This document shows positions 57,589-60,873 of a DNA stretch of 64,000 bases, one piece after another. Each line of letters starts with the position of its first letter. Within the stretch, counting starts at the first letter, position 1. Source of the stretch: Sphingobium sp. (lineage in GTDB: Bacteria > Pseudomonadota > Alphaproteobacteria > Sphingomonadales > Sphingomonadaceae). The position numbers and the translations under genes are program-made. The notes below the pieces were generated by a model, which saw only the letters and a list, made by a program, of their open reading frames with translations, was not told the DNA's origin and ran no database searches. The stretch covers positions 1-64,000 of the forward strand of contig JAHFPV010000003.1 of the NCBI GenBank assembly GCA_023266575.1, written 5' to 3'.

Positions 57589-58212
57589 TCAGCCCTGCTG
57601 CGCGCTCAGTCGTTCGACTTCATCATGCAGCGCCTGGATGGACGAGACCAGGCGGGCGCGGTCGGCCTGGAGTTCGCGCAGGGTTTCGCGGGTTTCGCCC
57701 AGTTCCACGGCGCGGCGCGCAATGCGGGCGTCGAGTTCGGCATTGTGGCGGGTGAGCGTACCCAGCGTTTCGGCGCGCTGGCAAAGATGGCGCATACGGG
57801 CGTCCAGCACGTCGAAATCAAAGGGTTTGACGACATGGTCATCGGCCCCGGCATCCAGCGCCTCCACCGTCGACTGGCTGTCGAGCCGCCCGGTGAGCAT
57901 GACGAAACAGGCGGATAGGGCCAGGTTCGCGGCGCGGATTTTCTTCATCGTCGCGACGGCGGGCAGCATCGTCAGCCCCATGTCGATCAGAATGATGTCG
58001 GCGGGGCGCGTCACCAGCAGGTTGACCGCGACAAAGCCGTTTTCCGCCAGCGCGACATCATAGTTGAGGTGCGACAGGCGGCGGGCGACGACGGCGCGCG
58101 CGGTGGGATTTTCATCGATCAGCAGCACGCGCAGGCGGCGTTGGGGGCGGGCGATCTCGCTCATGTCCTGATCTTCAGGCCGACGGCTGCGATTGCGCTT
58201 GAAGATCTGCAT
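57589..58212 (-). CDS. Response regulator with receiver domain and coiled coil
   Basis: 207 residues from ATG 58212, preceded by a near-ideal ggtggag. The receiver domain (about 26-145) keeps the acidic pocket (LLIDENP), phosphoacceptor Asp (ADIILIDMGL) and Lys (DDHVVKPFDFDVLD). The last about 55 residues are a coiled coil (RAVELGETRETLRELQADRARL). There is no DNA-binding or enzyme domain, so output must be by protein contact. It is divergent from the peptide/cupin module across a 149-base gap with an AT palindrome. No partner kinase is in the window. Confidence 0.85.
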   Translation of the reverse strand: MQIFKRNRSRRPEDQDMSEIARPQRRLRVLLIDENPTARAVVARRLSHLNYDVALAENGFVAVNLLVTRPADIILIDMGLTMLPAVATMKKIRAANLALSACFVMLTGRLDSQSTVEALDAGADDHVVKPFDFDVLDARMRHLCQRAETLGTLTRHNAELDARIARRAVELGETRETLRELQADRARLVSSIQALHDEVERLSAQQG

Positions 58213-58285: not shown

Positions 58286-58301
58286 ATTAAATTCATTTAA
58301 T
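58286..58301. promoter_or_regulatory. AT-rich palindrome in the divergent region
   Basis: ATTAAAT-TC-ATTTAAT is a perfect 7-2-7 palindrome and stands out in GC-rich sequence. It lies about 60 bases upstream of the 46-residue peptide gene and about 75 bases upstream of the response regulator, so it could be an operator for either. Confidence 0.45.
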
Positions 58302-58361: not shown

Positions 58362-58502
58362 ATGCCACAGACCGTGCCGCAACTGGCCATTGACGACATT
58401 GTCGACCTGCCCGCCGGGGCCAGCCTGTTCGGGTTGCAGGATGGCGATGTGCTGGACATCAGCCTGATGGATATTGTGATCGCGATCATCGACCAGCCGT
58501 GA
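58362..58502 (+). CDS. 46-residue acidic peptide, possible precursor or partner peptide
   Basis: 46 residues from ATG 58362, with an ideal ribosome binding site (aaggagg ending 6 bases before). The peptide has eight Asp and no Lys, Arg, Cys or His; hydrophobic runs end in MDIVIAIIDQP. The N-terminal half (MPQTVPQLAIDDIVDLPAG) has leader-like character. It is not recognised as any family. Its stop overlaps the GTG of the next gene (GTGA), so both are made together. A modified-peptide precursor, a structural subunit or an inhibitor are all possible. Confidence 0.62.
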   Translation: MPQTVPQLAIDDIVDLPAGASLFGLQDGDVLDISLMDIVIAIIDQP

Positions 58503-59323
58503 CGCCAGGGGCGTTGGGGGCGGCGCTGGGGCAGGCGGTGGCGGCGGCCCAGGATGCGCCGTTCGGCCGGGCACTGGCGCTGATCCGGCCATTTCTGCAC
58601 GATATAGGCTGGTTTACCGATCTGCTGGCACAGGGCTGCGCGGCGATGACCGCCGATCCCATGCACCTGCCCGGCTTTCGCGCGAGCCGCAGCGGTGCGG
58701 CCCGGCATCTGGTGCTGGCGCGAACCGAGCGGATCTGGCTGTCGGCGACGGTGATCGACCCGGTCAAGCAAGCGGGTTCGCGGGTGCATTTTTCCGGTCG
58801 CCATATGCTCTGCCGCCCGCTTAATCGCGCGCTGCGGGGTGAGGGGTTCCGGCTGGAGGGAGAGCGGGCGGTGCCGACCGGGCCGCGTCATTGCGCGGTG
58901 GGCGATGTGCTGGAACTGGACGAGCGGCGTGAGACGCTGCGCATCCTGCCGGACGACGCGCCGCTGATGCTGTTGCGGGCGCAGATTGCGGGGCGAGGCC
59001 CGGTCTGTTCGCGCATATATGAGTCCGCAACCGGCGCGCTGGTGGCGCGGGCGGAGGCGGATGAGGGCCATGCCCGCGCGCTGATGCTGCTGTCGCTGCT
59101 GCGAGTGCAGGGGCGTAGCGATGCGGCGGCGCAGTTTGTTCAGGCGCTCGACACGCCGCTTGCCCCGCAGCGCTGGGCGGTGATGCGCGAATATCTGGCG
59201 CTCGATACGGCAAGCGCTTTGCCTGCGTTGCGCGCGATGGCGCAGGCGGAAAGCGACGCGGCGGTGCGGGCGCTGGCGGCGCGGACGCTGGCGCAGATCG
59301 GGGCTGTGCCATGCCCCGCCTGA
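58499..59323 (+). CDS. Unknown protein, cupin-like core with helical C-terminus (first paralog)
   Basis: 274 residues, not recognised. Residues about 60-165 alternate in beta-strand pattern (RHLVLARTERIWLSATVIDP, RVHFSGRHMLCRPLN, HCAVGDVLELDERRETLRIL), consistent with a cupin-type barrel. From about 185 it is Ala/Leu-rich and helical (HARALMLLSLLRVQGRSDAA, DAAVRALAARTLAQIG), like HEAT or Armadillo repeats. The next protein has the same order of parts, so the two look like diverged paralogs. The GTG start sits in the stop of the 46-residue peptide, and the end overlaps the next start by 13 bases. Confidence 0.75.
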   Translation: MTPGALGAALGQAVAAAQDAPFGRALALIRPFLHDIGWFTDLLAQGCAAMTADPMHLPGFRASRSGAARHLVLARTERIWLSATVIDPVKQAGSRVHFSGRHMLCRPLNRALRGEGFRLEGERAVPTGPRHCAVGDVLELDERRETLRILPDDAPLMLLRAQIAGRGPVCSRIYESATGALVARAEADEGHARALMLLSLLRVQGRSDAAAQFVQALDTPLAPQRWAVMREYLALDTASALPALRAMAQAESDAAVRALAARTLAQIGAVPCPA

Positions 59324-60210
59324 TCGAACCGGCACCGGATGACAATGTCATCGACCTCGATGCGCTGGTCGACTGGTGCGAGAGTGCGGCCTTCGATCCC
59401 GGCTGCGAGGAAGGGCTGGCCGCTGCCGCGCCGATGCTGCGGGCGTTGGGACGCAACCGCGATTTCCTGGCAGACTTCGCCATCGCCGAACTCAAGACGC
59501 GCTGCGCGGGTCAGCGGCAGGCCAATCCCTATTCGGCGCAGGTCATGCTGCTTCGCCCTCCCAGGGGCAAATATGTGCTGCGTGCCGCCTTCTGGCCCGC
59601 CGAGCGCGACCATGTGGTGCGGATGAGTGGTCCTGCCCCCTTCCTCTATCATGTGCCGCATGATCATGGTTTTGACTTTCTGACCATCGGCTATCTGGGA
59701 CCGGGCTATGGCTCGGACTATTATGCCTATGACGGCGATGTCGCGGGCGCGGCGGGAGAGGTGGTGGCGCTACGTTTCGTGGAGCGAAGCCATTTGTCGC
59801 AGGGGCGGATGCTGCTCTACCGCGCCAATCGCGACATTCATGCGCAAGTGCCGCCCGATTCCCTGTCGGTCTCGCTCAACATATTGGCCAGCGCGCCCGA
59901 TCAGGGCTGGCGGCGGCAATATCGGTTCGACACTGTTCGCAGCACGATCGCCGAATGTATGACCGTGGCCAGCGCGCAATTGCTGCTGGAACTGGCGGTG
60001 GGGTGCGGCAGCGGCAATGCGATCGACCTGGCCCAGGATTTCGTCGCGCGCCATCCTGCCGACGCGATGCGGCGGACGGCGTGGGATGCGATCGGCACCG
60101 GGCTGACCGGCGTGGCGCGACTGGCGCATTGGGAATCGGGTGCGCGCAGCAGCAGCCCGCTGATCCGGTTCGCCAGTGAAGCGGCGCTGCAATCTGTCCA
60201 CAATGGATAG
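59311..60210 (+). CDS. Unknown cupin-like protein with helical C-terminus (second paralog)
   Basis: 299 residues, not recognised by family name. The N-terminus is acidic and helical (DNVIDLDALVDWCESAAFD). The middle (about 85-200) is a beta-rich core with a metal-site-like stretch FLYHVPHDHGFDFLTIGYLG (about 111-130), whose two His (HxH in PHDHG) resemble cupin motif 1. SQGRMLLYRANRDIHAQ could supply further ligands. The C-terminus (about 215-299) is helical (FVARHPADAMRRTAWDAIGTG), matching its upstream paralog. This copy has the clearer candidate metal site, so it may be the active partner. Confidence 0.75.
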   Translation: MPRLIEPAPDDNVIDLDALVDWCESAAFDPGCEEGLAAAAPMLRALGRNRDFLADFAIAELKTRCAGQRQANPYSAQVMLLRPPRGKYVLRAAFWPAERDHVVRMSGPAPFLYHVPHDHGFDFLTIGYLGPGYGSDYYAYDGDVAGAAGEVVALRFVERSHLSQGRMLLYRANRDIHAQVPPDSLSVSLNILASAPDQGWRRQYRFDTVRSTIAECMTVASAQLLLELAVGCGSGNAIDLAQDFVARHPADAMRRTAWDAIGTGLTGVARLAHWESGARSSSPLIRFASEAALQSVHNG

Positions 60211-60276: not shown

Positions 60277-60873
60277 GTGGGCAGGCGGGTCGATTGTCAC
60301 GGATTGGGCAGTGATTTCGCACCGCTGGCACGGGCGCTGAGCGCGCGCGGCTTCGATCTGGCGATGCAGGGGGCGGGCGGCGATCCGCCACGGGTCAGCA
60401 TCAGCGATGCGACGATCCTCTGGCAGGGCGTGGACGATCCCGCCGCCCGCGCCCGCGCGCTGGAGGGGGGCGCGCAGGATGTTGTCGGCCCGTGGATGCA
60501 TGAGGGGGAAGCAGTGGCGCGGATCATCCGGCTGGCCCGCGACGACCAGCCCCGCTTGCGGGTGGGCGACCTGCTGATCCATCTGGTCGACCGGCAAGTC
60601 GAACGGGCGGGCCGGGCGATCCCGCTGTTGGCGCGCGAATATGCGCTGCTGCTGCATCTGGCGCGGCAGCCGGGGGAGGCGGTCAGCCGCGACGCGCTAT
60701 TACGCGCGGTATGGCGGCTGGAATTTGATCCCGGCACAAACAGTGTCGAGGTGCATATGTCGCGTCTGCGCGCCAAGATCGACCGGGGGCATGACTGGCC
60801 GCTGCTGCGGACGGTCAGGGGGCGGGGCTATGCGCTTTGCCCGGCTGGTGGTGGCGCGCCGTCCGGGGCGTAG
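60277..60873 (+). CDS. OmpR-type winged-helix regulator with degenerate receiver
   Basis: 198 residues. The C-terminal part (about 98-192) is an OmpR/PhoB winged helix: LLAREYALLLHLARQPGEAVSRD, LLRAVW, SVEVHMSRLRAKID, LRTVRGRGYAL. The N-terminal about 95 residues follow a receiver pattern only loosely (ILWQGVDDPAARARALEGGAQDVVGPW); the acidic pocket and phosphoacceptor context are not recognisable. It probably does not work by phosphorylation. The start is GTG 60277, because a stop lies two codons upstream in frame. It follows the paired cupin-like genes by 66 bases, and its end overlaps the convergent tetR by 46 bases. Confidence 0.82.
   Translation: MGRRVDCHGLGSDFAPLARALSARGFDLAMQGAGGDPPRVSISDATILWQGVDDPAARARALEGGAQDVVGPWMHEGEAVARIIRLARDDQPRLRVGDLLIHLVDRQVERAGRAIPLLAREYALLLHLARQPGEAVSRDALLRAVWRLEFDPGTNSVEVHMSRLRAKIDRGHDWPLLRTVRGRGYALCPAGGGAPSGA

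Follow-up and report, generated by a model that had tools for sequence, protein, structure and literature searches.

Described systems resemble the locus treated here either in fold or in layout. The locus lies at positions 58362-60210 of a window (the whole stretch analysed) of 64,000 nucleotides from Sphingobium sp. (assembly GCA_023266575.1, contig JAHFPV010000003.1), and comprises the gene of a 46-aa peptide followed by those of two larger proteins, P2 and P3 (working names for the second and third gene products). In fold, the thiol dioxygenases (cysteine dioxygenase, CDO, 3-mercaptopropionate dioxygenase, and mercaptosuccinate dioxygenase; CDO_I, PF05995) share N-terminal helices and a cupin barrel with P2, and their HDH motif and third His match the three His of P3. 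The 2-oxoglutarate cupin hydroxylases (AspH/JmjC) carry a metal site of the form HxD/E...H. ADO and the plant cysteine oxidases (PCOs) take the N-terminal Cys of proteins as substrate, unlike the Cys-free peptide of the window, and to our knowledge have neither a HEAT domain nor a dead partner. According to the accessible part of the source, they lack the Ser-His-Tyr triad of the thiol dioxygenases and have hydrophobic-Asp-hydrophobic instead (PMC8503633). In layout, the MNIO (DUF692) systems for ribosomally synthesized and post-translationally modified peptides (RiPPs), such as bufferins, methanobactins, and pearlins, likewise combine a small precursor, an iron-dependent oxidative enzyme, and a dedicated partner (PMC12452194, part of the text). 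A cupin-fold protein is also found in the RiPP clusters of the cupin-like/JmjC hydroxylases PbsQ and BpmG, the former of which hydroxylates an Orn residue of its precursor (PMC12257519, in the portion available).

The reading frames of the locus were checked, and the three genes lay on the forward strand with overlaps of 4 bases between the peptide gene and P2 and of 13 bases between P2 and P3, reproducing the overlaps that the original prediction, made from this DNA without database searches, had given. The sequence AAGGAGG was situated directly 5' of the peptide ATG, which agreed with the strong ribosome binding site noted at that time.

58362-58502, forward strand: peptide gene, ATG at 58362, stop codon ending at 58502, 46 aa; putative precursor or substrate, with a leader-like N-terminus (LAIDDIVDLPAGASLFG) and a C-terminal hydrophobic strand after the conserved Asp37
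58499-59323, forward strand: P2, GTG start, 274 aa; thiol-dioxygenase-like cupin without conserved metal His and with a HEAT-like C-terminus, putative pseudoenzyme partner
59311-60210, forward strand: P3, ATG start, 299 aa; three-His site (H117, H119, H177) and HEAT-like C-terminus, putative metal-dependent modifying enzyme

We favor the reading that these genes form a RiPP-like peptide-modification cassette in which P3 would modify the peptide and P2 would be a dead recognition partner, and we give it a probability of about 0.6.

The peptide accompanied the pair at most of the loci. A profile built from 35 seeds and run on the small open reading frames (ORFs) upstream of P3 matched 5' of the pair in 83 of the 92 intact loci (E < 1e-3), and among the 58 intact loci that had given no seed it matched 49; as the seeds had been taken beside pairs, this census is partly by construction. 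The remaining nine comprised two with a clear peptide inside an over-long ORF (G132 and G065), two with weak scores (E 0.025 and 0.074 for G044 and G087b, respectively), four in which a short hydrophobic-ended peptide was recognized by eye only (G027b, G155, G845, and G686), and one with a disrupted pair (G162). The census covered 101 locus groups. Nine of these did not count as intact, namely Sph4, which has the peptide but a short flank; G515, in which the profile missed P2 and the peptide is doubtful; G073, with a broken P3 and a peptide recognized by eye; G030 and G112, in which the profile found no P3; and fragments from G191, G180, and G176 (two pieces), of which G176 and G191 have the peptide. 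The peptide was present in all 16 Sphingobium loci obtained from the contig scan, which may share species with the sampled family genomes. When another 10,999 small ORFs from these loci were scanned for comparison, one match was obtained (E < 0.01), just 5' of a P3 remnant.

In the reverse direction, a peptide profile (A6) matched 55 of 149 family genomes (taken as G000-G148, inferred from the listing), and the best match of each of the 55 was found on the same contig as P3, at 865-1314 bp from its start; because the 29 peptides behind A6 came from loci with pairs, this search too is partly by construction. Comparison of two listings indicated that these 55 correspond to the P3-positive genomes up to G148 minus G030 and G112. 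Three more matches (E 0.002-0.009) occurred elsewhere in the 149 genomes, in long frames. Peptide, P2, and P3 are thus a conserved gene unit, with overlapping genes in the window, and the peptide gene was neither absent nor non-conserved beside homologous pairs, the outcome that had been named as fatal to the coupling.

The window peptide (MPQTVPQLAIDDIVDLPAGASLFGLQDGDVLDISLMDIVIAIIDQP) contained eight Asp and no Lys, Arg, His, or Cys, as described earlier; without Cys, cysteine oxidation of this peptide is impossible. Among 87 distinct peptides, with ends trimmed by script, lengths ranged from 36 to 78 aa, mean net charge was -5.6, and Cys appeared in 13 but not in the other 74. The family shared an N-terminal segment, (I/L)D(I/L)xxLPDLxTxxGxFGS, with Gly in the Gly24 column in 81 of 87 peptides and the Leu of LPDL in 78 of 86; Phe, Pro, and Gly of LPDLxTxxGxFGS were also among the best conserved columns. 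The Asp37 column, directly N-terminal to the hydrophobic strand, held 70 Asp and 6 Glu (87 peptides). The ratio of nonsynonymous to synonymous substitution rates (dN/dS) of the window peptide against its Sphingobium relatives was 0.11-0.41 for 13 of the 15 comparisons and reached 0.52 and 1.14 for the remaining two (L015, of other length, omitted), and judged by these ratios the gene is under purifying selection. Mean distances were 0.60 for the N-terminal half of the peptide, 0.76 for the C-terminal half, and 0.53 for P3. Thus, the N-terminal motif was best kept across clades and the C-terminal part had diverged more, whereas within Sphingobium the C-terminus was conserved. No second peptide copy was found in the own genome, where the sole other profile match (E 0.9) fell in a long frame. 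The peptide of L090 (-1378 to -1217 from P3) was unlike the others, having DLTLDEADVVSAG as its leader-like stretch and a hydrophobic end of 19 residues.

P2 and P3 had been proposed to be diverged paralogs, and their profiles aligned end to end (hhalign, 267 columns, E 7.6e-7, probability 91.7), which bore this out. Alignments A3 and A4 used 16 of 17 sequences, L007 being omitted as a near-copy of L006. The predicted structure of P2 (predicted local distance difference test score, pLDDT, 90.9) presented a cupin fold nearest to cysteine and thiol dioxygenases, residues 1-186 aligning with the N-terminal helices and barrel of these enzymes, followed by HEAT-like helices at the C-terminus; P2 is accordingly predicted, from this model, to have a cupin fold of the CDO type. 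The AlphaFold2 model of P3 reached a pLDDT of only 43.6. HEAT_2 was matched at E ≤ 1 by 17 of 22 P2-family members (best 6e-9; window P2 itself 0.013) and by 5 of 24 P3-family members (best 9e-4), so that the helical repeat-like C-termini described earlier can be called HEAT-like. No above-cut-off name for peptide, P2, or P3 was obtained from Pfam, NCBIfam, PADLOC, or PHROGs, the scans giving only HEAT repeats, chance matches, and ordinary domains of the two flanking regulators. CDO_I and PCO_ADO were not matched at E ≤ 1 by any of these 24 P3-family and 22 P2-family members, nor did the two families give Pfam matches to DUF692 or DUF2063. Sequence searches of the PDB gave helical-repeat and chance matches, and none for P2 alone, and a viral fold library gave generic cupins. 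No title or abstract in a full-text literature search opened on the peptide-P2-P3 layout, most subscription journals lying outside its coverage.

The HxH motif that had been pointed out in the second larger protein corresponded to H117 and H119 of P3 and was kept in 96 of 96 distinct relatives (94 HDH and 2 HNH), as was [DN]xHxQ; the third His, H177, was invariant too. Against a profile of seven thiol dioxygenases (A5, of this size because two genome searches with PF05995 gave too few members), P3 aligned over 163 columns (hhalign, E 3.8e-5, probability 70.7), with H117-D118-H119 placed on the invariant HDH motif and H177 opposite the third His. P3 therefore carries the three-His metal site of the thiol dioxygenases, and P2, whose family had no conserved His and whose profile gave no sequence-level signal against A5, does not. 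The positions of the Ser-His-Tyr triad were occupied in P3 by Ser188, Asn190, and Leu192, a break similar but not identical to that of ADO and the PCOs. In the profile alignment Gln77 fell on a Gln of 3-mercaptopropionate-type enzymes, and the invariant R91 and R171 could serve as the Arg that binds a substrate carboxylate.

The original prediction had suggested oxidation or hydroxylation of the peptide by a metal-dependent pair with one catalytic copy. Two cupin-fold paralogs, peptide-linked and with a metal site only in the second, were found as supposed, and no known unrelated family without a metal-binding cupin core was matched, the core being of the metal type; the site is not, however, the HxD...H of 2-oxoglutarate hydroxylases. 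A JmjC/AspH-type hydroxylase was ruled out by HxH...H in 96 of 96 relatives. A free cysteine dioxygenase was also ruled out, since two triad residues, His and Tyr, are missing from P3 and a canonical thiol dioxygenase is encoded separately in the own genome (L170, G000:C14, around 58286; phmmer 2e-79 to 6xb9). The latter is of the 3-mercaptopropionate type and adjoins transporter- and rhodanese-like genes.

Compared with thiol dioxygenases, P2 and P3 differ in the C-terminal HEAT-like domain, in the missing CDO_I match, and in forming a paralog pair with one apparently dead copy, P3 in the triad, and the cassette in its linked peptide, mostly without Cys. The MNIO enzymes belong to another family with mostly Cys targets, whereas here enzyme and partner would be paralogs of one cupin family. 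PbsQ and BpmG represent JmjC-related tailoring in larger clusters, and the available part of PMC12257519 mentions no thiol-dioxygenase-like pair or HEAT domain. As in RiPP systems, a small gene is dedicated to the adjacent pair of putative modifying proteins. By analogy, the cassette appears MNIO-like in layout and ADO/PCO-like in fold, and we would file it under neither.

P3 matches were obtained in 76 of 199 sampled Sphingomonadaceae genomes, two of them weak and failing the P3 profile (G030 and G112), and P2 matches in 67. The P3 profile (A1) matched 5 of 385 genomes in a class sample, one of them outside the family, and 15 of 398 in a phylum sample, two of them outside; neighbors differed at the loci outside the family (L114-L116). 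In L116, P2 had 239 aa and P3 234 aa, and the match of the latter stopped at position 220 of the 299 in the profile; the HEAT-like domain may therefore be lacking there. Two versions of the cassette were found in each of three genomes (L079/L080, L086/L087, and L088/L089). L087 and L089 were AT-rich at third positions and looked acquired, and L096 did likewise.

If the cassette is RiPP-like, P3 would be a mononuclear oxygenase, probably with iron, or some other metal enzyme with the peptide as its substrate; the likely target is either the hydrophobic segment at the C-terminus or the conserved Asp before it. P2, as a dead copy, may bind the (I/L)D(I/L)xxLPDLxTxxGxFGS segment together with the HEAT domains and present the peptide, and the adjacent winged-helix protein and an upstream palindrome would control expression. 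Inspection by eye of the recurrent ORF clusters at 24 loci, and of the cassette neighbors at the further loci listed, showed no recurrent exporter or protease, apart from an efflux-pump-like gene upstream in L116, and no RiPP recognition element, for which no dedicated search was made. For lack of a recurrent exporter or protease, the product would probably act intracellularly or be released by a general route. Were the peptide the substrate, a thiol-oxidizing fold would do different chemistry on a Cys-free peptide with a dead paralog as partner, in a widespread, tractable, and so far unnamed peptide-modifying system of environmental bacteria. The locus would also illustrate cleanly how an enzyme and its pseudoenzyme paralog can remain tied to a single small peptide. 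We propose only tentatively, at slightly under even odds, that it represents a new RiPP-like class, in which an enzyme of thiol-dioxygenase fold, in obligate pair with a dead HEAT-fused paralog, performs new iron/oxygen chemistry on a Cys-free aliphatic/aspartyl segment of a dedicated peptide, the product being made by many Sphingomonadaceae.

The same data could be accommodated if the peptide were a small subunit, structural (as the original prediction had also considered) or activating, of an enzyme that P2 and P3 form and that acts on another substrate, its hydrophobic C-terminal strand pairing with the cupin barrel or the HEAT surface. The single peptide copy per pair, the lack of a recurrent exporter or protease nearby, the strand conserved within Sphingobium, and the 74 of 87 peptides without Cys are consistent with such a role; yet length and sequence vary between clades beyond P3, and a short conserved N-terminal motif with high variation is precursor-like rather than subunit-like, so that we regard a subunit as rather unlikely. 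It is improbable that P3 binds metal in a metal, oxygen, or redox sensing module that signals, with P2 and the peptide, via the adjacent winged-helix regulator. ADO is described as an oxygen sensor in the accessible part of PMC8503633, and the regulator follows P3 directly in 38 of 115 locus rows and is found almost nowhere else in the fetched loci, but 77 of the 115 rows have no following regulator and most of these still have peptide, P2, and P3.

A toxin-antitoxin or bacteriocin-like system, in which the pair would neutralize or activate a toxic hydrophobic peptide, seems very improbable. The short, hydrophobic-ended peptide, the two cassettes in three genomes, and the acquired-looking copies would fit it; against it stand the acidic character of the peptide, the lack of any PADLOC or PHROGs match, the absence of P3 relatives from viral contigs in a pattern-limited search, and a chromosomal place that many loci have in common (lysA close by at 12 of the 24 compared). 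Nothing but the absent annotation speaks for coincidental neighbors, in which two ordinary enzymes would merely happen to follow a spurious small ORF. A chance small ORF is excluded by the census, the reverse search, and the purifying selection measured by dN/dS, and coincidence can for practical purposes be dismissed.

Two further features flank the favored RiPP-like cassette.

58286-58301, no strand assigned: perfect palindrome ATTAAATTCATTTAAT, putative operator or promoter element of the cassette
60277-60873, forward strand: winged-helix regulator of OmpR type (Trans_reg_C, E 1.5e-21), without a receiver-domain match in Pfam

Homologues of the regulator in the 38 locus rows (repeated places counted) lay on the same strand, 27-437 bp 3' of P3, and the fetched loci (1,269 kb), to which this search was confined, contained one other match; the winged-helix protein is a probable regulator of the cassette. 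In L081 and L084 it was reduced to little beyond the winged helix. The exact palindrome occurred only once in the own genome (3.62 Mb, 26 contigs), where two other sites had 2 mismatches each, a reversed control pattern giving 2 per strand. At 41 of the 83 distinct loci a TTTAATT element was present 50-105 bp 5' of the start of the peptide gene, compared with a mean of 0.25 in 20 shuffles, and some of the loci with it had no downstream regulator. In the window, this element takes the form of the perfect palindrome. On the basis of these motifs, the palindrome is likely an operator or promoter element.

A divergent response regulator with a coiled-coil-like tail was located upstream (57589-58212, reverse strand; Response_reg, E 1.7e-17). 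Recurrent neighbors across the loci included an argH-lipoprotein-lysA-siroheme-synthase-like block (names assigned from the sequences), with lysA nearby in 12 of the 24 compared loci and in 24 of 54 wide rows. They also included two related 4HBT thioesterase genes in tandem, never one alone, which stood divergently upstream at 42 of the 84 locus rows; both features occurred together in 4 of the 54 wide rows, being mostly exclusive. Thioesterase homologues were present in 102 of the 149 family genomes, in 42 of the 55 that carry the cassette and in 60 of the 94 that do not, but not in the own genome; we therefore take them as a common landmark and have set them aside as a component. We read the argH-lysA block and the 4HBT pair as landmarks of the usual places of the cassette. 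The pair lay 1.2-3.5 kb 5' of P3 on the opposite strand in L078, L083, L085, L086, L091, L092, L096, and L117-L125, among others.
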